A DNA stretch of 64,000 nt from Bacteroidota bacterium. Lineage in GTDB: Bacteria; Bacteroidota; Bacteroidia; Chitinophagales; Chitinophagaceae. Numbering within the stretch: the stretch's first letter is position 1; every line of letters begins with the position of its first letter. The stretch lies in assembly GCA_947454025.1 (NCBI GenBank), contig CANGIZ010000002.1, forward strand, positions 1-64,000. The letters run 5' to 3'. Both the position numbers and the translations under genes were made by a program. Shown one piece after another: positions 2,929-15,788 of the stretch. Under the pieces are notes generated by a model. The model did not search any database and was not told the origin of the DNA. It saw only the letters and a list, made by a program, of their open reading frames with translations.

Positions 2929-3113
2929 CGACTTTGTTTTTGCGAATGTAAGTCCAAAATATGGGAATTTAAAGAGAAAAACTTAACTTACACCTATGAA
3001 CAAGGTACATGTATTGATTTTGAACTTAGATTTATTGAATCATCCCTTGGGGTAATCGTATTTGCCTCCTCTTTTTTATTACATTTTTTTTACTTTTTTT
3101 AAATTTATACATA

Positions 3114-4349
3114 ATGTCAACTAACCATCATGTTAGTGCCAATGCTGCAAAGTATTTGGAACTAGAAGATCAATTCGGAGCCCACAACTATCATCCAATT
3201 CCTGTCGTTTTAGAAAAAGGCGAAGGTGTATTTTTATATGATGTAGACGGAAAAAGATATTTCGATTTTTTAAGCGGTTATTCAGCCGTGAATCAAGGTC
3301 ATTGTCATCCTGCAATTGTAAAAACTTTACAAGACCAAGCCGCTAAATTAACTTTAACCTCTCGTGCTTTTCACAATAATTTACTAGGCGAATACGAAGC
3401 CTACATCACCAAATATTTTGGATACGATAAAGTGTTACCGATGAATACTGGGGTTGAAGGCGGAGAGACTGCTATAAAACTAGCACGTAGATGGGGCTAC
3501 AATGTAAAGGGCATTGCCGAAAACCAAGCGCGCATTATTTTTGCCGAAGGTAATTTTTGGGGACGCACTTTAGCAGCCATTTCTTCCTCTACCGATCCAA
3601 GTAGTTTTAAAGGCTTTGGCCCTTATATGCCAGGTTTTGGATTGGTACCTTATAATGATTTAGCCGCTTTAGAAAATGAATTAAAAGATACCAATGTAGC
3701 TGCATTTATGGTGGAACCTATACAAGGTGAAGCAGGTGTTGTATTACCAGACGAGGGATATTTAAAAGGCGTGCGCGATTTATGTACTCAATACAATGTG
3801 TTATTTATTGCCGATGAAATTCAAACTGGTTTAGCAAGAACGGGTAAAATGTTAGCATGTGATCATGAAGGCGTAAGACCAGATATTTTAATTTTAGGAA
3901 AAGCATTAAGTGGAGGCACTTTGCCTATTTCTGCTGTACTTGCAGACAATATTGTGATGATGCAAATTAAGCCAGGCGAACATGGTTCAACTTACGGCGG
4001 AAATCCATTGGCATGTGCTGTGGCAATGAAGTCATTGGAAGTATTAAAGACCGAGAAAATGGCAGAGAATGCCCAAGCAATGGGCACACTATTAAGAGCT
4101 GAATTAGAAAAATTAAATTCTCCACTTATTAAATTAGTACGCGGTCGTGGTTTGTTAAATGCGATTGTTATTGACCACAAAGATCCTGAAGTTTCTTGGG
4201 AACTTTGTTTACACCTACTTGATTTAGGATTATTAGCAAAACCAACACATGGAGATAAAATTCGTTTTGCACCACCTCTTATTATTAACGAAGCTCAAAT
4301 TAAAGAAGCCGTTGGTATTATTGGCGAAGCATTAAAAAGATTGTCATAA
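3114..4349 (+). CDS. rocD: Ornithine aminotransferase
   Basis: 411 residues, the usual length for EC 2.6.1.13, which converts ornithine and 2-oxoglutarate to glutamate semialdehyde and glutamate. This class III PLP aminotransferase has [17 protein letters not shown] (PLP-phosphate cup, about 104-120), the acidic [15 protein letters not shown] motif (about 230-244) and the Schiff-base lysine in [10 protein letters not shown] (about residue 263). The start [17 protein letters not shown] is characteristic of ornithine rather than acetylornithine enzymes. It stands alone, with a strong hairpin terminator after it. Confidence 0.93.
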
Positions 4350-4367
4350 TATCATTGCACTTCAAAT

Positions 4368-4399
4368 AAAAAAGCCTCAATTATATTTGAGGCTTTTTT
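4368..4399. terminator. Bidirectional terminator after rocD
   Basis: A perfect 13-bp stem AAAAAAGCCTCAA / TTGAGGCTTTTTT with a 6-nt loop. A-tract and T-tract flank both sides, so it can end rocD (+) and the convergent small membrane protein gene (-). Confidence 0.9.
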
Positions 4400-4418
4400 A
4401 TTTATAATAATTTTATGA

Positions 4419-4805
4419 CTATTTAGGGATCTTAATTTTTGGCAAGAAAGTCATGATTAATATTCCAAATGAAATAACAATACACGCATACAAGGCCCAT
4501 TGCTTTTGAGGGCACTCTCCCATTTGGCAAGTTGATAAAACAATAAAATTTCTAAATGACCAAGCAAGAATTAAAGCTCCTAGAACTACATTAAAACGTT
4601 TAGCCCATAAATAAGGCAGGGCAAAAAAGAGTAATGATAATCCACCAAAATATGCAAGAAATTTTCCTGGTTGACCAAAGCTACTTCCCGCACTCTTCCA
4701 GCCTGTGATTACCCAATGTTGACTATCGATAATAACCAAGGGTTGCGTAGTACAATAAAATAATGCAGCACATAATAAAAAGCCAATAGTCTGGGAATGT
4801 TTCAT
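4419..4805 (-). CDS. Small polytopic membrane protein, unknown
   Basis: 128 residues with about four hydrophobic segments: 7-22, 50-66, 72-88 and 105-121. A CQMGECPQK segment between the third and fourth helices has two close cysteines. I recognise no family. It is convergent with rocD and sits downstream of higBA on the same strand, 29 nt after the higA start side. Function unknown. Confidence 0.6.
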   Translation of the reverse strand: MKHSQTIGFLLCAALFYCTTQPLVIIDSQHWVITGWKSAGSSFGQPGKFLAYFGGLSLLFFALPYLWAKRFNVVLGALILAWSFRNFIVLSTCQMGECPQKQWALYACIVISFGILIMTFLPKIKIPK

Positions 4806-4834: not shown

Positions 4835-5128
4835 CTAAGCAATCTTAAGTCTTTTTATCCTATTAAATTGATCTCCTTTTTCCAATAGCTCTTCTTCGAT
4901 ATCAAAATCGTTTTGTAAGCCTAGCCAAAAATTTGGAGTATTTCCAAAGTATTTTGCCAATCTTAAGGCAGTATCGGCTGTAATGCTTCTATTCCCTTTT
5001 ATTATTTCTGAAATTCTAGTTTGTGCAATATCAGTTTCCTTGCAAAGGCGATATGCACTTATATTTAATGGTATTAGAAACTCTTCTTTTAATACTTCTC
5101 CCGGATGTATGTTTTTTATCTTTTTCAT
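4835..5128 (-). CDS. higA: HigA-family antitoxin (XRE HTH)
   Basis: 97 residues. It begins HPGEVLKEEFLIPLNIS, the typical HigA opening, and has a helix-turn-helix over about 20-56 (YRLCKETDIAQTRISEIIKG...ITADTALRLAKYFG) ending NTPNFWLGLQ. It binds the toxin encoded just upstream and represses the operon. The toxin-first gene order, 9 nt after higB, is the hallmark of higBA. A palindrome upstream of higB is a candidate operator. Confidence 0.9.
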   Translation of the reverse strand: MKKIKNIHPGEVLKEEFLIPLNISAYRLCKETDIAQTRISEIIKGNRSITADTALRLAKYFGNTPNFWLGLQNDFDIEEELLEKGDQFNRIKRLKIA

Positions 5129-5137
5129 AATAGTGAA

Positions 5138-5419
5138 TTAATGGTAGTCAATTATTTGAATGTTTTCAACGTTTTCATTTATCCAAATAAATATGATTCT
5201 CCATTTATTATTAATTCTTATAGAATAATATGCCGACAAATCACCTTTTAACTTTTCTAACTTATTGGAAGGTGGTAAGGAAAGATCCTTAATATTTTCA
5301 GAGCGATGGACCATTCTTAACTTCCTTCTTGCGATTGCCTGAATTGATGCTGGTAATTTTTTTGAAAATTCACCTTGCCAAATTTTAAGCGTTTCTTTAT
5401 TCCCAAAACTTAGTATCAT
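5138..5419 (-). CDS. higB: HigB-family toxin (RelE-like ribosome-dependent mRNase)
   Basis: 93 residues. It has the RelE/HigB signature: RKLRMVHRSENIKDLSLPPS followed by LEKLKGDLSAYYSIRIN and KWRIIFIW. Family members cut mRNA on the ribosome using basic residues in these strands. The partner antitoxin follows 9 nt downstream. The pair lies about 300 bp left of the tRNA-Cys island boundary, so it is outside that element as I delimit it. Confidence 0.9.
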   Translation of the reverse strand: MILSFGNKETLKIWQGEFSKKLPASIQAIARRKLRMVHRSENIKDLSLPPSNKLEKLKGDLSAYYSIRINNKWRIIFIWINENVENIQIIDYH

Positions 5420-5511: not shown

Positions 5512-5571
5512 CTAGCATCCGCACCGGTATACTTGGATTGCTAGCTTCGCTAGCATCCGCACCGGTATACT
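5512..5571. repeat. 22-bp direct repeat pair
   Basis: A 22-bp word beginning CTAGCATCCGCACCGGTATA occurs at 5512-5533 and 5550-5571 (period 38 bp). The spacer holds the palindrome GCTAGC-TTC-GCTAGC. No gene here. Confidence 0.8.
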
Positions 5572-5710: not shown

Positions 5711-5724
5711 GAGGTCCCGAGCGG
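5711..5724. repeat. Attachment-site repeat, distal end (14 bp)
   Basis: Identical to 15717-15730. Only the last bases of tRNA-Cys are present, so this is not a tRNA gene. It joins the old tRNA-Cys terminator on its left to element DNA on its right. Confidence 0.85.
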
Positions 5725-6042: not shown

Positions 6043-6315
6043 TTACTTGAAAAATAATGTTAATTTAAAAAGTTCTTTAACTCTTAGGTAATTTTCAACT
6101 TTCAGATTATAGTAGAAACACAATCTATAATTGAGCCTAACAGCATCTTCCAAATACTCGTTTCTTTTACCATTTAGATATCTAAATTGCATAAGTTCTT
6201 CATAGCACTGATCCATTAAGCCTTCTAGGTCTCCGGAAGCTTCTTCAAAATGTTCTAATATTCCATCTAATTCTTCTTCAGAGAATGAATCGCTAATTGG
6301 TCCATCGTATTTCAT
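6043..6315 (-). CDS. Hypothetical acidic small protein on the island
   Basis: 90 residues. The N-terminal half is strongly acidic (DSFSEEELDGILEHFEEASGD). The rest is helical in appearance with several Tyr and Phe (RLCFYYNLKVENYLRVKEL). No signal peptide and no recognised family. It starts 17 nt after the stop of the giant repeat gene and so is probably its last cotranscribed partner. Function unknown. Confidence 0.55.
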   Translation of the reverse strand: MKYDGPISDSFSEEELDGILEHFEEASGDLEGLMDQCYEELMQFRYLNGKRNEYLEDAVRLNYRLCFYYNLKVENYLRVKELFKLTLFFK

Positions 6316-6332: not shown

Positions 6333-9300
6333 TTATAATTTTTTCTCTTGTGCCAACTTGAGCAGCATTAACTCTATCCTATTTAACCTTTCTTTTAATT
6401 CTGTGTTTTCTTTGCTTAACTCCTGAATTGACTTAACCAAAACTGGCATCAAGTTACCATAAGTAGCCTCCCATTTATTGGGGGTGGCTTTATAGACTAA
6501 TTTAAGCCAATCTGCTTTAAACTTGTTCTGAGATTCGTCTAACTCTTGGGCAATGAACCCAGCATTTAATTCTCTCCCGATTTTGCTTCCATCAGATTTG
6601 CCATCATGATACCACTCTCTTTTATCCCAATTAAAAATTCTTGGCTTCAATGAGTTTATAAAATCCAATCCAACTGTCAAATCTTGTATGTTTTTCTTGT
6701 CTCTTCTATCAGAAAGAGAAGTAATGTTTTGAACATTTGATCTGATTGTAGTAATTGAACTATTCCCAAGTGTAACTTCATTTGAAACATTGTTTCCAGA
6801 GGCAGTTGCACCATAACCGATAACTATATTATTATTTCCAGTCATTAGACTTGCACCTGCATTATCTCCAATTACAACGTTATAATTTCCGGTTGTATTA
6901 CTATATAATGAATATCCCCCAATTGCCACATTACGACTTCCAGTTGTATTATTAAACAAAGCATCCATTCCAATACCATTATTTAAATTACCTGAAGTAT
7001 TTCTAGCAAGAGCCGCTAATCCAATTGCTGTATTTTGTGCCCCAGTTGTATTATCATGTAAGGTAGAAGCTCCAATTGCCGTATTTTGGGCTCCAGTTGT
7101 ATTCAAGTTTAACGCAGTGTGACCTAATGCGCTATTGGCCCAACCTGAAGTATTATATGCAAGTGTATTACTACCAACTGATGTGTTTTCTTGACCAATT
7201 GGCAGAGTACCTACAATGTTGCTAATTAAAGCATTTTTACCGATAGCTGTATTTGAGGTATCTGCTCCACCACCTCTACCAACAATTAATGAATTAACTT
7301 TTAAATCAAATGCACCTAAATCAACTGCTTGAGTTGCTCCTGTATAAGGAACCCCAGAAGTTACAGAAGTTGAAACCGTTCCGTCTGCCATTAAATACTG
7401 GTTTGAAGTTCCTGCTAATATTTTGTAACCAGAAGCTAATATTGTTCCAGAAGTTTTCACGTCAGTTATATTTGCATCACCTAGTTGTATTGTATTTGAT
7501 GTTGCTACTAAGCTATTAGCTCCAATAGCAGTTGAATTGGAAATTGTACCACTAAATACATCTGCTGAATAACCAATCAATGTGTTATTATTCCCTGTGG
7601 TATTTGATAATCCAGATGAAAGGCCAATTGCTGTATTGTTATTCCCAGTTGTGGTTCTATTTAAAGAATAATAACCTACTGATGTATTATTGTTTCCATT
7701 ACTATTTTTAAGTGCGCCATTCCCAAATGCACTATTATTGATTCCGGTTAAATTATAAAATAATGATGTCACACCAAATGCTGAATTTCTATAACCTGTT
7801 GTATTACTAAATAAAGAAAATAAGCCAAATGCACTATTATCAAACCCCGTAGTGTTTGAAACTAAAGATTGATAACCTAACGTAGAATTTTCATTACCAG
7901 ATATATTGTTCTGCAATGCACCTGGACCAACTGCAGTATTCCAATAACCAACTGTATTATTCTGCATACTTGCAGATCCAACCGAGACGTTTTCATATCC
8001 AGTAGAATTAGAAAACATAGAACTTGAACCAATAGAAGTATTGTTGCTACCAGTTGTATTAGATGTCAAAGCATAGCCGCCTACACTAGTATTATTTGAA
8101 CCTGTCGTTGTCCCAAATTGAGAATATGTACCTATAGCAGTGTTAAAATTTGAAGTTGTGTTACGAGTTAATGACTGCATTCCTAAAGCAACATTATAAG
8201 ATCCAGTTGTATTTTGATATAAGGCTAAAGATCCACTGGCAGTATTTCCAACACCAGTAGTGTTAGAATATAAAGTACCTGACCCAAAAGCCCCATTAAA
8301 ATTCCCAGTAGTGTTAGAATATAAACTAGCTACACCTAAAGCCCCATTATTATTCCCAGTTGTATTGTGTATTAATGAATTGACCCCAATAGCAGTATTA
8401 TCTGAGCCGGTTGTATTATCCCTTAAACTCATGGTTCCAACTCCAGTATTTGTATTTCCGGTTATATTTGAAACCAATGCGCTATCTCCAACAGCAGTAT
8501 TCTGAAACCCAATTGTATTGGATGCAAGACTATAAACACCTAATGCACTATTAGAATAACCAGTTGTATTTGAATAAAGTGAATTAGTTCCCAATGCGAT
8601 ATTATTAGAAGCAGTAGTATTGTTATAAAGACTTTGGTAACCTATAGCAGTATTATTACTACCTGTAGTATTATAGAACATTGAATTCGAACCTAAAATT
8701 GAATTAAAGCTACCAGTTGTATTAAAAAATGAACTACTAGTTCCTATTGAAGTATTATCATGACCAATTGTATTCGAATATAATCCACCCATCGCAACTA
8801 AATTATTACCTGTTGTATTCGCTCTTAAAGTTCTAAAGCCTATTGCAATATTAGCATTAGCCTGATTGTTTAATAATGCCTCTACACCAACAGCAACATT
8901 TTCTCGGCCATCAGTATTGCTATTTAAAGCCTTATATCCTATTGCTAAATTTTCAATACCAGTAGTGTTATTTTGAGAAGCTTGATATCCAATAGCTGTA
9001 TTATAAATACCACTTATATTGCTATTTAACGACTGGAATCCAATTGCTGTATTATTTGTAACTGAAGCAGTTCCAGCTCCGATCCCTATTGTTAGCCCAT
9101 TTACTTTTAAATCATATGCACCCAAATCAACTGCCTGACTAGCACCAGTGTATGGCACACCAGCAGTTACTGATGTGGTTACAGTTCCATCTGCTCTCAA
9201 ATATTGCGTTGATGTTCCATTAGGAACTTTAAACCCAGCAGCAGTTACTGCGCCATTAGTTTTTACATCCGTTATGTTTGGATCCCCTAGTTGAATCTGA

Positions 9301-10601
9301 TTGCTCGCAGTTACTTGTGCGTTGTATCCAACTGCAGTTGAATTTGAAATTGATTGAAGAGTCGATCTAGTTAGTGCACCTAATAAAGTTACTTTCGAAG
9401 CAGTGGTTAAGGTATTACCCGAAAATGAGCCAACCGCAACGTTATCATCTCCATTATTATTTTGCAATGAATTAAAACCAATTGCGGAATTTCTAACTCC
9501 GATTGTATTTTTATTTAAGGATAATGCACCAACAGAAACATTTCCAAACCCTTCAGTATTATTTTGGAAACTATGAGATCCGATTGAAGTGTTTGAATAA
9601 CCAATAGTATTACTAACCATTGAAGATTTACCTATTGCAGTATTTCTAAAACCATCTGTATTAGAAGAGAGTGCACTATCGCCAATTGCGGTATTACTAA
9701 CTCCAGTAGTATTTGTAAAAAGGGATTGAAAACCTACTGCCGTATTATATCCACCATTAGTATTTGATTTAAGCGACTCAAAACCTATCGCTACATTTCT
9801 AATGCCAGTAGTATTATTTAAAAGCGCATTGTTACCGACCGTAGTATTCGATGTGTTACTCGAAGTTCCTGAACCAATTCCAATTGTCAACCCACTGACT
9901 TTTATGTCATTTGTAAAATTGGAATTACTAACTGCCATTTTACCATCGATTCTACTAGATAAACTAGCTGTGTCAGAATAGTTAAATTTTGAATTAATTC
10001 TATTTGATAAACTAATTGTATCACTTTTATTAAGCTTTGTGTCTAAACTTGCTTGGGTTAAAGTAGAAATCGGCTTATCCAAATCTGCTGTATTATTCAC
10101 TTTATCAATAGTAAGAACTACTTTCAAATCACTTATACTAGCAACACCAGTTCCTCCCGATTTAACAGGAAGAATACCAGCCACATTTACTGCATCTACA
10201 CCATTACTATAGTATGAATAAGGGACAAATTGTAAAGGAGTTGTTCCCATTGTAATAAAATTTATCCCACCTGTTGGGTCCATCTCAACTTTCAGATATT
10301 TGTTACTCAATTTCCAATTCACATTTGAGTAATTGCCAATGGCTGATATTACTCCTGTATCTCCTATCACTACAGAAAATATACCTTGTGCATTTGTTAG
10401 AACATTTCTTGTTTCGATATAATCAGGATTACTTGTATTTGTTCCAGTTAAGATTGAAAGCTTTAAAGAAATCTTTTGACTTGCAAGTATTGTTCCGTTT
10501 GCACTTCTAGCAACTCCTTGAAAGTTAATGCCCTGCGAGTTGCCCACATAACTTATCATCAAAAACACATACACAACTATTGATTTTAGGATCCATTTCA
10601 T
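6333..10601 (-). CDS. Giant secreted YadA-head-like repeat protein with C-terminal S74 chaperone domain
   Basis: 1422 residues. A signal peptide (about 1-22) is followed by an N-terminal beta domain (24-130, NFQGVARSANG...). Three cycles of left-handed-roll head repeats follow (about 240-455, 480-1060, 1083-1280), of the form NTTGxxNTAIGxxSLxxN. Each cycle closes with a xNxxLGxxxIT element, and the first two are followed by a near-identical linker (GVPYTGAxQAVDLGA). The C-terminus is a peptidase S74 intramolecular chaperone: SDRRDKKNI with the Ser1297/Lys1302 pair, GFIAQELDES, then a coiled coil (about 1390-1420). S74 domains trimerise tailspike-like fibres and cleave themselves off. No YadA barrel anchor and no T9SS tail are present. 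Likely a trimeric surface fibre or adhesin; the role is inferred. Confidence 0.85.
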   Translation of the reverse strand: MKWILKSIVVYVFLMISYVGNSQGINFQGVARSANGTILASQKISLKLSILTGTNTSNPDYIETRNVLTNAQGIFSVVIGDTGVISAIGNYSNVNWKLSNKYLKVEMDPTGGINFITMGTTPLQFVPYSYYSNGVDAVNVAGILPVKSGGTGVASISDLKVVLTIDKVNNTADLDKPISTLTQASLDTKLNKSDTISLSNRINSKFNYSDTASLSSRIDGKMAVSNSNFTNDIKVSGLTIGIGSGTSSNTSNTTVGNNALLNNTTGIRNVAIGFESLKSNTNGGYNTAVGFQSLFTNTTGVSNTAIGDSALSSNTDGFRNTAIGKSSMVSNTIGYSNTSIGSHSFQNNTEGFGNVSVGALSLNKNTIGVRNSAIGFNSLQNNNGDDNVAVGSFSGNTLTTASKVTLLGALTRSTLQSISNSTAVGYNAQVTASNQIQLGDPNITDVKTNGAVTAAGFKVPNGTSTQYLRADGTVTTSVTAGVPYTGASQAVDLGAYDLKVNGLTIGIGAGTASVTNNTAIGFQSLNSNISGIYNTAIGYQASQNNTTGIENLAIGYKALNSNTDGRENVAVGVEALLNNQANANIAIGFRTLRANTTGNNLVAMGGLYSNTIGHDNTSIGTSSSFFNTTGSFNSILGSNSMFYNTTGSNNTAIGYQSLYNNTTASNNIALGTNSLYSNTTGYSNSALGVYSLASNTIGFQNTAVGDSALVSNITGNTNTGVGTMSLRDNTTGSDNTAIGVNSLIHNTTGNNNGALGVASLYSNTTGNFNGAFGSGTLYSNTTGVGNTASGSLALYQNTTGSYNVALGMQSLTRNTTSNFNTAIGTYSQFGTTTGSNNTSVGGYALTSNTTGSNNTSIGSSSMFSNSTGYENVSVGSASMQNNTVGYWNTAVGPGALQNNISGNENSTLGYQSLVSNTTGFDNSAFGLFSLFSNTTGYRNSAFGVTSLFYNLTGINNSAFGNGALKNSNGNNNTSVGYYSLNRTTTGNNNTAIGLSSGLSNTTGNNNTLIGYSADVFSGTISNSTAIGANSLVATSNTIQLGDANITDVKTSGTILASGYKILAGTSNQYLMADGTVSTSVTSGVPYTGATQAVDLGAFDLKVNSLIVGRGGGADTSNTAIGKNALISNIVGTLPIGQENTSVGSNTLAYNTSGWANSALGHTALNLNTTGAQNTAIGASTLHDNTTGAQNTAIGLAALARNTSGNLNNGIGMDALFNNTTGSRNVAIGGYSLYSNTTGNYNVVIGDNAGASLMTGNNNIVIGYGATASGNNVSNEVTLGNSSITTIRSNVQNITSLSDRRDKKNIQDLTVGLDFINSLKPRIFNWDKREWYHDGKSDGSKIGRELNAGFIAQELDESQNKFKADWLKLVYKATPNKWEATYGNLMPVLVKSIQELSKENTELKERLNRIELMLLKLAQEKKL

Positions 10602-10603
10602 GA

Positions 10604-11128
10604 CTAAAGCTTGATAATTTTATAAATTCCCGTTTTAATTTTTCCTGCAATTGGCTTAAAATAAACCTGAATATAATATTGTCCAGAAGCAAAATTTGAC
10701 ATATTGACTTGATTTTGCATAGAACCAAATGTTGTAAAACTTGGACTTCGGTAAAATATCCTTGATTCTAGATCAATAATTTGATATTGTAGCTGCCCCC
10801 CGCTGCTTAAATCAGAATTCAAGTGCGCTATAGTATTAACAGGATTAGGAGTTATATTTATTTCGTTAATGCCAAATGGAGTATATATTTCATTAATTCC
10901 GGTTACTAGTGGAGGATTTTCTTGCAAAAATCCACTACTTAAACTAACGCCACTAGTGCTATTGAAATTAGTAATTGAGATTGTTTCCCCTGTACTAATA
11001 GTCAATGAAAATCCATTTTGCGTACCTGACAAACCTCCAATATTTAAAGTAAAAGGTGAAATCGTCTGTGACTTCCCATTTATAAAAACAGTGCCTATCA
11101 ATAAAAGAGATAGTAAAAATGATTTCAT
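10604..11128 (-). CDS. Secreted protein with T9SS type A sorting domain
   Basis: 174 residues. A signal peptide (about 1-20, cut near GKSQ) leads a short N-terminal region. Residues about 92-174 form a type A C-terminal sorting domain: ITPNPV, a central YQIIDLESR strand, NMSNFASGQYYIQVY, and the basic KTGIYKIIKL end. Such tails direct export by the type IX secretion system. The stop lies 2 nt before the ATG of the 1422-residue repeat protein, so the two are almost certainly cotranscribed. Because the partner has no anchor, this protein may attach or present it; that is inference. Confidence 0.8.
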   Translation of the reverse strand: MKSFLLSLLLIGTVFINGKSQTISPFTLNIGGLSGTQNGFSLTISTGETISITNFNSTSGVSLSSGFLQENPPLVTGINEIYTPFGINEINITPNPVNTIAHLNSDLSSGGQLQYQIIDLESRIFYRSPSFTTFGSMQNQVNMSNFASGQYYIQVYFKPIAGKIKTGIYKIIKL

Positions 11129-11389: not shown

Positions 11390-12769
11390 ATGAAACAAGT
11401 ACTTACTATTACAGGCATAATACTCTGTTTTGCAGTTTCCTTTTCACAGTCAACTTCAAATAACAAAGGATTAGACGTATTATCACTATCAAATCAATCA
11501 ATCCAGATTTTCGGTAAGCTTAGAACTTCCAAGTACTTGTCATTGGCAAAGCCATTCAATAACCACATTCAAACTATTATTAAGTCAGATAGTGGCATTT
11601 TCTGTCTCGTTGACGGAACTGGAATGCTTTACAAACTATCTAAATCTGATGGTCAATTCAAAAGAGTAGACTCAACTCTTTTTTGGGGTTACAACCTTGG
11701 TGCATTCCCGTTTACTTATAAAACGGAGATCTACAATTTAGGTGGCTCTGGCTTATGGAGAAGTAATGGACACTTACGTAAATTTAATTTTAAAGCCCAT
11801 GAATGGGATATTGTTCCCCTTAATGAGGAAGTGTCAGTCATTTCAAGCGACAAAGCTGGTTTGGTCTATTATGATCAACAAACTGGAAAAATTTACTCCG
11901 GCTATTCATACAATATTAATGATGGGATTAAACCTGATTCCAAAGGTCCCGAATATTACTACAAAGTAATGTGCTTAAATCTGGCAACTAATGAATGGAG
12001 CTACCTAGGTGAATTGAATTCAAATCTGATTGATGATATCAAATCAGAGTACAATATAGCAGCTACGCCAATTGGACTCCTAACATTAAACAATACAAAT
12101 CTTAGCCTCTGGGACTTCAAAAACAATCAACATTACCAATTGAATGATGCAAAAGGTGTATTTCAGTCAATAAAAAGAGGAATCGATACAACACTTGTTT
12201 TTTACAAAGACAACCAACTATATTTAAGCAGAGGAACAAACAATCTGGATTCAATCAAGTTAACTATTGACGATTTCCATTTAGCCGGCACTATATACTC
12301 AACTTCATTATTAACAATACTTAAACCTTATAGAAAGGCTATTTACATCCTCATTGTTGCACTTATTTTGATGTCTGGATATCGAGGTCTGATTGCATAT
12401 AAAAGGTCCGTAATAAGCAAATATGAGGCGCAGGCCTTAGCTGAAAAAGAAACCTTAGATGTGTCAATTAAGTTGTTTACTGATCAAGAGCTGCTATTAC
12501 TAAATTTACTCATTTCTAATAGCTCGAAAGGTGCAAAAACCAACATTAATGACATTAATGATTTCTTAGGCTTTGCCCATATGTCTATAGATACGCAAAA
12601 GCAGCAACGACATAATCTTATCACAAGCATCAATAAAAAATACCTAAACAAGACAACAAGAAACTTGATTCAAAGAGAGAAGCTGGAGTTCGATAAAAGG
12701 TCCTTTGTCTACTTTATATTTGAAGATGAACTTTCAATACTTCCAAAGTATATTCCCAAGGATGTTTAA
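11390..12769 (+). CDS. Membrane-spanning one-component regulator
   Basis: 459 residues. A signal peptide (1-19) is followed by a periplasmic part of about 290 residues with Kelch/propeller-like strands (for example WGYNLGAFPFTYKTEIYNLGG). A single transmembrane helix lies at about 314-334. A cytoplasmic part of about 125 residues starts with a short coiled region and LFTDQELLLLNLLIS, then RHNLITSINKKYL and a basic FDKRSFVYF end, which I read as a winged-helix-like DNA-binding domain common beside Bacteroidota surface genes. It is divergent from the T9SS/S74 operon across 261 bp, so it probably senses at the surface and controls that operon. Domain names are tentative. Confidence 0.65.
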   Translation: MKQVLTITGIILCFAVSFSQSTSNNKGLDVLSLSNQSIQIFGKLRTSKYLSLAKPFNNHIQTIIKSDSGIFCLVDGTGMLYKLSKSDGQFKRVDSTLFWGYNLGAFPFTYKTEIYNLGGSGLWRSNGHLRKFNFKAHEWDIVPLNEEVSVISSDKAGLVYYDQQTGKIYSGYSYNINDGIKPDSKGPEYYYKVMCLNLATNEWSYLGELNSNLIDDIKSEYNIAATPIGLLTLNNTNLSLWDFKNNQHYQLNDAKGVFQSIKRGIDTTLVFYKDNQLYLSRGTNNLDSIKLTIDDFHLAGTIYSTSLLTILKPYRKAIYILIVALILMSGYRGLIAYKRSVISKYEAQALAEKETLDVSIKLFTDQELLLLNLLISNSSKGAKTNINDINDFLGFAHMSIDTQKQQRHNLITSINKKYLNKTTRNLIQREKLEFDKRSFVYFIFEDELSILPKYIPKDV

Positions 12770-13558
12770 TTGAAGTTATGAATGTGTAGTAAATTGATAC
12801 TAAAGTGATGTAAGGAATGCAAACAATCTACTTTGTCTCTTTATGACTTAATCATTTTAAACAAGCTTGATTCCAAATATCCATTTTTTGTCTTCTTCCT
12901 CCACTTAGCAATGATTTGAAAAACTTTATTTGATTATTCATTGTCAACAAGGCATACCGAGCTTTATCCATAGCACCCTTATTTAGCTTAATCAAATTAA
13001 CTACGATCTGAGTTAATTGAATGAGAATAGAAAGTGATAGATTGGATAGCTCATTATATGATCGCACCCTTCGTAAGATCAATTGTTTTACAACAATACT
13101 GGGATCAAACTAAGCTTATAGGCTTTTCTATATTCACCTAGTCAGCAGAATCATAATCGGTTTTATGTAGAAGCCTTACCAGTGAAGACTGTGCATTTTG
13201 ACCCAGTTGTCAGTCGGACGACATTGCCGGGATTAACCGTTGATGAACTAATTTACTTTACGAATAAAGCGCCAATGAGTTGAGTAAGGATTTCCATTTC
13301 CTTAAGCAGTCAAGTTTTAGCCAACACTGCTTTTATGTAATAATAATTAGTAAGAGATTGCACAAAACGTATCCAGAAAAACAATTAACTTTCCCCAAAT
13401 CATTCACAATAGCCATTTAAAATTCAAAACAGCTAAAAATGAGATACGTTTTGGCAACCCCCTACTACGCTTTGCCAATATGTCAAAGAACTTTTTGTAA
13501 GCGCAACATTATTTGCCGGTTACTCTTCGAATTGATTTTTATCTATTAAAATGATTTT
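12770..13558. other. Gene-poor stretch inside the island
   Basis: 789 bp without a convincing gene. A frame open from 13122 to 13283 (+) lacks a start codon but has natural-looking composition near its end (KTVHFDPVVSRTTLPGLTV), and may be the 3' remnant of a lost gene. CAAAACGTATC and its inverse GATACGTTTTG occur about 80 bp apart (near 13365 and 13443). A 76-codon frame at 12852-13082 (-) is not supported by any motif. Confidence 0.4.
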
Positions 13559-13945
13559 TTAGGAAGCACTTAGGGTTATTCTTTGGAGTTCAGCTAAGCT
13601 TATTTCATACGCTAAAAAAGAGTCAAAAGCACGTTTGTAAACTTCAATGTATTCAGCTTCCAACCCTAGATTTATTGCATTTTCATACAAACGCATTGAT
13701 AGCCCAACGATAAACTTGTAGTTCACTTCATCATAATGACGATATCCATCTTTATTGTAAACACAAGCAACCTGCTCTTTCTCAATACCCTTTTGCTCAT
13801 AGTAATCAACTAGATAATGAAATATGGCTTTCCTTGTCCATTCCCTTATTACCCAGTCTTGTTTGTTATTTTCGAGTCTTGTTATAAATTGATTCATCCC
13901 ATCTTTAAACTCTTCAAAGTCGAAATTTGGCTTGTAAATGATCAT
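13559..13945 (-). CDS. Hypothetical protein of the integration module
   Basis: 128 residues, no signal peptide or membrane helix, rich in Tyr, Phe and acidic residues (DEVNYKFIVGLSMRLYENAINLG). Not recognised. It is the third gene of a tight leftward unit: integrase, 1-nt gap, HTH protein, 2-nt gap, this gene. It is probably an accessory to element maintenance, inferred from position only. Confidence 0.6.
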   Translation of the reverse strand: MIIYKPNFDFEEFKDGMNQFITRLENNKQDWVIREWTRKAIFHYLVDYYEQKGIEKEQVACVYNKDGYRHYDEVNYKFIVGLSMRLYENAINLGLEAEYIEVYKRAFDSFLAYEISLAELQRITLSAS

Positions 13946-13947
13946 AA

Positions 13948-14247
13948 TTATTGATTTGAATTGTTAGTGAATTGGGTTTTGTTTCTTTCAAGCATTGCAT
14001 TTACATCGGACTGGTAATAGAAGTAGATCCCGCCAACTTTAGTGTAATTAAGGTGGCCATTGTTTCTTAAATTTTCAATGGTGCTATCGCTGATTGCAAG
14101 TTGTTTTTTCAGGTCCTTTGACTTAAGGATTTTGTACTCTTGCATACCAGATTGCTTAGGAAGCTTATTTTCAAGTTCCTTTAATAGATCGTTTTTGAAT
14201 TGGTTTAACATCTCTTGGATGTCTGACTGATCGTACATTGTTTTCAT
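13948..14247 (-). CDS. HTH DNA-binding protein, excisionase-like
   Basis: 99 residues. An N-terminal amphipathic region (1-35) leads a winged-helix/MerR-like motif over about 40-85: LKSKDLKKQLAISDSTIENLRNNG, then KVGGIYFYYQSDVNAML. This is the HTH_17 pattern of Bacteroidota excisionases and recombination directionality factors. It begins 1 nt after the integrase stop, which fits a role in excision control. Regulator rather than Xis remains possible. Confidence 0.7.
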   Translation of the reverse strand: MKTMYDQSDIQEMLNQFKNDLLKELENKLPKQSGMQEYKILKSKDLKKQLAISDSTIENLRNNGHLNYTKVGGIYFYYQSDVNAMLERNKTQFTNNSNQ

Positions 14248-14248
14248 A

Positions 14249-15466
14249 TTATAAATTGTTTGATGATTTACTTGTATGGTTGCCGAAAATGGCTTTTAGA
14301 GCACCGAAATCGTCCTCTACTTTCTGAGAGGATACCTTGCTATAAATTTGAGTTGTCTTGATGCTAGCGTGCCCTAATGCCCTAGAAATCGTCTCCATGG
14401 GCACTTTGTTATTCACAGCTATACAAGCAAAAGAATGCCTCCCAATGTGGCAGGTTAACGACTTATTTAAACCTGCTTCTTTAACAACATCCTTTAAAGC
14501 TTGATTCATTTTTTGATTTGATGGCACTGGGAATGATTTGCCTTTATACTTTGCTGCCGGATTGTTCTCATACCTTTCAATTAACATCCTTGCGTTTGGT
14601 AAAATAGAGATAATGCAATCTTCGTTTGACTTCTGTCTAGAAATTCGGATTAGCTTCTTTTCACTATCAATATTTTCAGGTGCAAGATTCTTAAGATCTG
14701 AGTAACTCAATCCAGTGTATACCATAAAACAAAACAGATCTCTAACTATGGCCAAGCGTTGATTATCTTTAAAGTCCAATGACATAATTTTATCTACTTC
14801 CCCTATAGTTAATGTTATTCGTGTCGTAGGAGCCAGCTTGATTTTGTACTTTCTTGTTGGGTCGGATTCAATCCAATCTAGCTTAAGGGACATATTAATA
14901 ACCGCCCTGATTCGTTTAATATGCTTTGCAATAGTATTGGTTTTGTTGCCTCGAAACTTGCTTAGATAGGTGCTATAAGATGTCAGAAATTCATAGTTGA
15001 CGTCTTGCAGGTTTGCATTACTTTGCTTGTATTGCTTCCTTATAAACGACTCTAAGATACCCTTATCGGCCTTATAGTGGCAGATAGTATCTTTGTTGTA
15101 CTGATCCTTATTGGAGTCTATAAAAAATTGAAAAGCATCCAACAACTTTTTTGCTTCTACATTGTTTTCGTTGCCTTTTAGAAATGCCTTAACTGAAGCA
15201 TTTGTGACTTCCTTATTCAGCATTCCCATTTTGCCAACATAAGCCCAAAAGTCCTTTTCCTTTTGTTGGATGATACTATTAAGATGTAAGGACTGAGGAT
15301 GAGTAGATTTAAACCTGAACTTGTTTTCATCCCAATACTTGGGATCCTCTGAAATATTCATTGAAAGGTTTATCTCGTTCCCAATCCCATTGATTCTCAT
15401 GTAGATGGGTGCCTTACCTAAACCGTTCATTTTTGATTTAATCTGATAAAAGTTAACTTTTAACAT
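14249..15466 (-). CDS. Tyrosine recombinase (integrase)
   Basis: 405 residues. An N-terminal arm-binding domain (about 1-95, IYMRINGIGNEINLSM) and a SAM-like core-binding domain (about 100-205) precede a catalytic domain. It has HIGRHSFACIAV (HxxR box), LGHASIKTTQIYSKV (second His and nucleophile Tyr) and the first-arginine region YTGLSYSDLKNL, where Ser replaces the canonical Arg, as known for CTnDOT-type integrases. The gene faces away from tRNA-Cys, 250 bp from the att repeat. It most likely integrates this element into tRNA-Cys. Confidence 0.92.
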   Translation of the reverse strand: MLKVNFYQIKSKMNGLGKAPIYMRINGIGNEINLSMNISEDPKYWDENKFRFKSTHPQSLHLNSIIQQKEKDFWAYVGKMGMLNKEVTNASVKAFLKGNENNVEAKKLLDAFQFFIDSNKDQYNKDTICHYKADKGILESFIRKQYKQSNANLQDVNYEFLTSYSTYLSKFRGNKTNTIAKHIKRIRAVINMSLKLDWIESDPTRKYKIKLAPTTRITLTIGEVDKIMSLDFKDNQRLAIVRDLFCFMVYTGLSYSDLKNLAPENIDSEKKLIRISRQKSNEDCIISILPNARMLIERYENNPAAKYKGKSFPVPSNQKMNQALKDVVKEAGLNKSLTCHIGRHSFACIAVNNKVPMETISRALGHASIKTTQIYSKVSSQKVEDDFGALKAIFGNHTSKSSNNL

Positions 15467-15716: not shown

Positions 15717-15730
15717 GAGGTCCCGAGCGG
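15717..15730. repeat. Attachment-site repeat within tRNA-Cys (14 bp)
   Basis: Identical to 5711-5724. It covers the discriminator, the 3' acceptor strand and the first T-stem bases of tRNA-Cys, the usual target of tRNA-specific tyrosine integrases. Confidence 0.85.
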
Positions 15731-15788
15731 ATTCGAACCGCTGTAGAAGCTTTTGCAGAGCTCTGCCTAGCCACTCGGCCACAGGACC
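15718..15788 (-). tRNA. tRNA-Cys(GCA)
   Basis: A 71-nt cloverleaf. The acceptor GGTCCTG/CGGGACC has one G-U pair and discriminator U. The anticodon arm is GAGCT-CTGCAAA-AGCTT with anticodon GCA. The T arm is AGCGG-TTCGAAT-CCGCT. CCA is not encoded. The gene stays complete because the element regenerates its 3' end, but its former terminator now lies 10 kb away at 5668-5707. Confidence 0.95.

Follow-up and report, generated by a model that had tools for sequence, protein, structure and literature searches.

A gene for a long fiber protein and, directly upstream of it, a gene for a small protein with a probable sorting tail of the type IX secretion system (T9SS) were found in a 64,000-nucleotide (nt) stretch of DNA (the window; contig CANGIZ010000002.1) from a Bacteroidota bacterium of the Chitinophagaceae. 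The fiber is interpreted as a mosaic surface fiber similar to the mosaic adhesive trimeric (MAT) fibers of Bdellovibrio bacteriovorus, with the T9SS signal supplied in trans by the upstream partner, a reading whose chances we judge to be even. For many Bacteroidota genes annotated as "tail fiber domain-containing protein," no exit route from the cell has been stated. The coupling to a tail-bearing partner suggests how such fibers could leave the cell. Neither the partner gene, which ends 2 nt before the fiber gene, nor the integrated island around the pair was part of the original prediction made from this DNA.

The fiber, its N-domain family and the partner gene

The original prediction described a 1422-residue YadA-head/S74 protein at 6333-10601. 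The open frame was confirmed and lies on the minus strand, which had not been stated. Its N terminus is signal-peptide-like by inspection, in agreement with the prediction, and ends GNS-Q. Directly after it follows a beta-rich N-domain of about 110 amino acids (aa; about residues 24 to 134), for which a monomer model gave seven strands (predicted local distance difference test [pLDDT] about 80 over the core, mean 64.8) and Foldseek no PDB match at E<=0.001. The T9SS tail and the autotransporter barrel were correctly predicted to be absent, as S74 was the only Pfam family found in the fiber at E<=10. Likewise, no C-terminal membrane anchor of the YadA type was found at this threshold, and the C terminus consists of the S74 domain and a helix.

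The N-domain was present in 53 of 61 same-genus genomes and in 41 of 98 same-family genomes, both sets being samples in which many genomes are incomplete. The window's own genome has six copies at E<=1. In the relatives that were fetched, the proteins concerned are about 150 to 2700 aa long and have the domain close to the N terminus, and a Pfam scan of 84 of their C termini detected Lcl_C (10), S74 (9), C1q (4), BclA_C (4), collagen (3), Fib_succ_major (2) and YadA_head (2) tips, in addition to OmpA, a phage depolymerase domain and other types that occurred once each. Judged from these sequences, the fiber is one member of a mix-and-match family in which one N-domain type is joined to differing tips, and Bacteroidota bacteria probably display such fibers on their surface.

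Several further observations concern this family. Ten family fibers (L080, L083, L084, L087, L088, L092, L100, L105, L106 and L116) have in common a C-terminal module like VTSSxPGVAMKADPDKVKxGQVIGKALQ...KINVLVSIK, which has no obvious name in the Pfam tally and is possibly another unrecognised tip or chaperone. An operon-like run elsewhere in the window's own genome (L072; C1:55000-74999) comprises a T9SS-tail partner, a 2687-aa N-domain fiber, a 321-aa S74 protein and more secreted proteins. Aureispira is a genus that preys by means of surface hooks. The N-domain was found in 2 of 72,556 plasmids, from Aureispira and Flammeovirga, the former (Aureispira anguillae, NZ_AP026868.1) carrying it at 12755-13180.

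The partner has the layout of a secreted protein. Its N-terminal part is a beta-domain (consensus W-S-x-G-E ... G-x-L-Q-P), and a T9SS sorting domain, borderline in score in the window copy, follows toward the C terminus. Among aligned partners, 25 of 31 matched PF18962 (E<=1e-3) and 11 of 31 matched TIGR04183; PF18962 was detected in none of the 84 C termini of fiber relatives, nor in the window fiber at E<=10. Of the 28 same-genus loci that could be assessed, 27 have the partner immediately upstream, separated by -34 to +43 nt. Besides the window, 29 such loci were fetched, one of which (L182) includes only 45 nt upstream and was not assessable; the single exception (L191) has another N-domain open reading frame (ORF) in the partner's place. 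The same-family census was restricted to ORFs whose start was intact (76 distinct N-domain genes, 75 assessable), and a partner was adjacent to 57 of these (44 upstream, 13 downstream). In the window's own genome, four of six N-domain genes have a partner beside them, compared with 3 of 120 other genes of the same loci, a control drawn from the fetched stretches only and not from the whole assembly. This assembly (2.04 Mb, about 87% complete) contains seven T9SS tails at E<=1e-3 and the translocon gene sprA. Furthermore, N-domain and partner distances are correlated (Mantel r 0.86, 29 pairs), a value that 2000 shuffles approach to at most 0.25.

A parallel was observed in Ignavibacteria, where S74 fibers have the same repeat and a different N-terminal domain. 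A T9SS-tail gene is adjacent to 36 of 47 of these fibers versus 26 of 167 other genes of those loci, a count that omits L003, L005 and L006 (not Ignavibacteria) and keeps L034 (Flavobacteriaceae, without a T9SS neighbor). In the Ignavibacteria loci L004 and L007 to L033, the conserved N-terminal domain has the consensus QNITNTLGTxGxFTIKD; the fibers often occur in tandem, and beside most of them is a T9SS-tail gene whose product has about 160 or 255 aa. The controls for both adjacency counts include genes flanking the partner's other side and are thereby inflated. The partner hidden Markov model (HMM) was iterated and also picks up generic T9SS tails, and "partner" in the downstream and Ignavibacteria counts means "T9SS-tail gene." A tail-less fiber is thus accompanied by a small tail-bearing protein in two groups that differ in their N-domain type.

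S74 domain and repeat rod

The S74 half of the predicted description held. PF13884 (Peptidase_S74) matched residues 1297 to 1356 at 40.2 bits, above the curated cut-off of 22, and the sequence SDRRDKK, starting at residue 1297, provides the SDxxxK motif at 1297 to 1302 (S1297-D-R-R-D-K1302). Ser1297 and Lys1302 are invariant in all 38 aligned C termini. By analogy with MAT fibers, the fiber would mature by self-cleavage at Ser1297, and its chains would trimerize.

The YadA head half was not recovered. The Pfam family YadA_head had no match in the fiber at E<=10, so that membership was rejected at the Pfam level, and a PDB sequence search with the repeats gave no match at E<=1. Kinship with the YadA head is nevertheless possible, as YadA_head matches 2 of the 84 relatives' C termini. 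The rod is built on a 17-residue period: identity at lag 17 was 0.35, the highest value for any lag among 1000 shuffled sequences being 0.137, and 27 of 40 motif spacings equal 17. Neck segments near residues 430 to 505 and 1035 to 1110 break up the repeats. In a monomer model of residues 1110 to 1422 (mean pLDDT about 61, about 70 over the repeats), each 17-residue turn has two short strands, and the repeats are followed by helices, including a long C-terminal helix from about residue 1381. VIA-align matched this model to generic beta-solenoids (Z up to 11.1; root mean square deviation, 2.7; 159 residues); no YadA chain was among the matches listed, an absence that carries no evidential weight. 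Foldseek gave no match at E<=0.001 for the same model, and PDB sequence searches with the repeats, the S74 end and the N-domain gave nothing useful, with one chance Fab match (E 0.32). The modeled rod has the form of a generic two-strand-per-turn beta-solenoid.

Proposed export in trans and competing explanations

According to PMC10769870, MAT fibers of B. bacteriovorus consist of a signal peptide, a beta-rich N-domain of about 130 aa with a presumed position at the cell surface, a trimeric rod and interchangeable tips. The latter include TNF-like and C-type-lectin-like folds as well as S74 domains, which are self-cleaving at the serine of SDxxxK. S74-terminated cell-surface fibers are already published as a principle.

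T9SS export requires a C-terminal sorting domain. As no scanned fiber has one, the economical proposal is that the partner would bind to the N-domain and lend the fiber its tail. The sequences show the domains, the gene order and the conservation of the pair; from there on, we infer T9SS transport in trans, contact between the partner and the N-domain, trimerization, cleavage and adhesion. Fiber and partner would be made as a two-gene unit, with Sec taking both across the inner membrane. The fiber would then assemble from three chains, with folding nucleated at the C terminus by the S74 chaperone, which would cut itself off at Ser1297. The fiber N-domain would bind the N-terminal beta-domain of the partner, whose type A T9SS tail would carry or tether the fiber at the outer-membrane translocon. 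By analogy with MAT fibers, the N-domain end of the surface-located fiber would be proximal to the cell, and the rod and tip would point outward as an adhesin or receptor-binding fiber. As the cassette is island cargo, fiber specificities could be gained horizontally. Attachment of the fiber, originally called unexplained, is no longer so to the extent that a conserved N-domain at the signal-peptide end and a coupled T9SS-tail partner gene exist; the statement stands to the extent that the role of the partner in trans is one we infer. More broadly, small cognate tail-bearing adaptors encoded in the same operon may let the T9SS export and anchor large tail-less cargo and serve a MAT-like fiber repertoire with swappable tips in Bacteroidota; in Ignavibacteria the arrangement would have arisen with another type of N-domain, and integrative islands would account for part of its spread. 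This wider proposal is a tentative one, with chances somewhat short of even.

A number of points weigh against export in trans. The window partner is just under both curated T9SS cut-offs (26.9 versus 27 bits for PF18962 and 17.7 versus 23 for TIGR04183). No adjacent partner was found for 18 of the 75 same-family N-domain genes or for two of the six in the window's own genome, and the correlation between pair distances is also expected from plain co-inheritance. Bdellovibrio is not known to have a T9SS; if the N-domains of the fiber and of MAT proteins are homologous, the T9SS therefore cannot be general for them. A trimeric rod would also have to pass the translocon, and both structure models depict monomers, with modest confidence (mean pLDDT 64.8 and 61.4).

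The main rival explanation is that the fiber is surface exposed like MAT fibers without involvement of the T9SS, the partner being a separate co-expressed T9SS surface protein such as a co-adhesin, a cap or a post-export receptor. MAT fibers reach the Bdellovibrio surface with an unidentified anchor (PMC10769870), and the 18 N-domain genes without an adjacent partner fit such a route. However, the pairing is tight, occurs in both phyla and is complementary, with 0 of 84 fibers tailed, which a neutral operon would not predict; we regard this explanation as unlikely, if well worth keeping in view. A fiber that is not displayed, and acts in the periplasm or at the inner side of the outer membrane, would agree with a chain whose sole export signal is that for Sec, no known one for the outer membrane having been found (Pfam, E<=10), but the lectin-, C1q- and S74-type tips and the T9SS partner point outward and make this location improbable. 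A similarly small chance is given to release, which the original prediction had suggested, in a form where S74 cleavage and loss of the T9SS tail would free a partner-fiber complex into the medium as a decoy or competitor-binding fiber. T9SS tails of Porphyromonas gingivalis are cleaved after translocation (PMC8545088), yet S74 cleavage would take off no more than 125 residues at the C terminus, and the N-domain would stay joined to the rod.

The idea that the fiber is a phage tail fiber or a decayed prophage remnant draws on strong matches to PHROG virion and tail-spike families, on the repeat and S74 part, which matches 43 of 50,697 phage records, and on the integrase close by. In contrast, the N-terminal 167 aa, comprising signal peptide and N-domain, had no match in the same phage records, and no N-domain or partner relatives were found in viral contigs by pattern scans (two for the N-domain). 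The island is only 10 kb long, and capsid, portal and terminase were found in none of its five Pfam-scanned proteins (two further small genes were unscanned). As the N-domain also recurs in 53 of 61 genus genomes, the prophage reading was rejected, and a phage origin of the whole fiber is hardly credible. Because the N-domain is absent from these phage records while the repeat and S74 part is not, reuse of a phage-fiber folding module in a cell-encoded fiber, which had been raised as a possibility, is well supported by these sequence searches.

Should the T9SS signal come from the partner, substrate lists based on the tail would overlook large adhesins of an entire class, which could be found directly through the pairing. 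The MAT idea of phage-style tips on bacterial surface fibers would then apply to a large environmental phylum as well as to a predator; the missing anchor would have a named candidate, and horizontal exchange would have a route. No paper joining T9SS export with tail-fiber-domain proteins was found by title and abstract start, in a search outside of which most subscription journals lie. In PMC10994853, tail-less fusions serve as the control for T9SS export.

The tRNA-Cys island and comparison with known systems

The fiber and partner genes are cargo of a 10,006-bp insertion in tRNA-Cys, which further contains an integrase, two small genes, a 459-aa putative membrane regulator and a 90-aa ORF (Table 1). 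In 11 of 19 same-genus loci (L139, L142-L146, L148-L150, L152 and L153), the site is empty and the tRNA-Cys terminator directly follows the tRNA, from which it follows that the window holds an insertion. In five others (L147, L151, L154, L155 and L156), the genes found at 3440-4805 in the window are directly beside the tRNA, and the remaining three do not decide the matter.

Table 1. Features of the fiber cassette and of the island in the window
Feature	Position	Strand	Basis or remark
14-bp attachment repeat, far island end	5711..5724	-	second copy of CCGCTCGGGACCTC; then native tRNA-Cys terminator
90-aa ORF after fiber gene	6043..6315	-	
Fiber gene	6333..10601	-	1422 aa, open frame
C-terminal helix, residues 1381-1422, probable chaperone coiled coil	6336..6461	-	monomer model
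S74 chaperone/protease domain, residues 1297-1356, Ser1297-Asp-x3-Lys1302	6534..6713	-	Pfam, motif
17-residue repeat rod, about residues 240-1290	6732..9884	-	repeat analysis; beta-solenoid in monomer model
Beta-rich conserved N-domain, residues 24-134	10200..10532	-	relatives' HMM; seven-strand model
Signal-peptide-like N terminus, residues 1-22	10536..10601	-	translation inspected by eye
Partner gene, 174 aa	10604..11128	-	ends 2 nt upstream of fiber start codon
Borderline T9SS sorting tail of partner, residues 94-156	10661..10849	-	PF18962, TIGR04183
459-aa gene, divergent from cassette, candidate regulator	11390..12769	+	inspection
128-aa island gene	13559..13945	-	
99-aa small gene beside integrase	13948..14247	-	helix-turn-helix-like by eye
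Tyrosine integrase	14249..15466	-	Pfam PF00589, PF13102, PF17293; adjoins tRNA 3' end
14-bp attachment repeat, tRNA 3' end	15717..15730	-	sequence CCGCTCGGGACCTC
tRNA-Cys, integration target	15717..15788	-	

By eye, the 459-aa protein has a signal peptide, an apparent membrane span and a cytoplasmic C terminus; it had no Pfam or NCBIfam match. Homologues lie 1.7-2.5 kb or less from an N-domain gene in at least three same-genus genomes (G108, G114 and G134), a lower bound given partial contig overlap and the subset of genomes compared. A relative of the 99-aa gene is located near a second, related integrase at L077 (15960-17231), on the same contig as the island (C2, about 80 kb). Just beyond the far attachment repeat lies what by eye is a pair like a HigB-type toxin and a HigA-type antitoxin (4835-5419, minus strand), and beside the island end the 22-nt sequence CTAGCATCCGCACCGGTATACT occurs in two exact copies 38 nt apart (5512-5571). 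At L108 (G094), an integrase-like ORF (2931-4001; phmmer, 1.2e-9) is located about 1 kb downstream of an N-domain gene (473-1969), perhaps as a second mobile cassette.

The island resembles other tRNA-targeted integrative islands in its tyrosine integrase beside the tRNA, its direct repeats and the empty sites in relatives, and differs in its cargo, a surface-fiber cassette. With phage Peptidase_S74/endosialidase chaperone proteins (PF13884), the fiber has in common the C-terminal S74 domain, the Ser-Lys dyad and the C-terminal helix, and its repeat and S74 part matches proteins of phages; unlike these, it has a signal peptide and a cellular N-domain, and no virion gene was found beside it. 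The YadA head has a period of 14 residues. Trimeric autotransporters of the YadA type are likewise rods of short-turn repeats, and the fiber is probably trimeric as they are, but it lacks a C-terminal barrel, has a 17-residue period and is not matched by Pfam YadA_head. The partner has a tail like that of T9SS type A substrates (PF18962, TIGR04183), borderline in score, in a genome with sprA, whereas the fiber has no tail of its own, and the signal would have to act in trans. In layout, the fiber is like MAT fibers (PMC10769870), with signal peptide, beta-rich N-domain, long rod and exchangeable tips that include S74 with SDxxxK. Unlike MAT fibers, the window fiber occurs in Bacteroidota, has a rod of 17-residue repeats, lies in an integrative island and is accompanied by a T9SS-tail partner gene. 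Overall, the new element compared with MAT fibers is this partner, as a candidate for export and anchoring.

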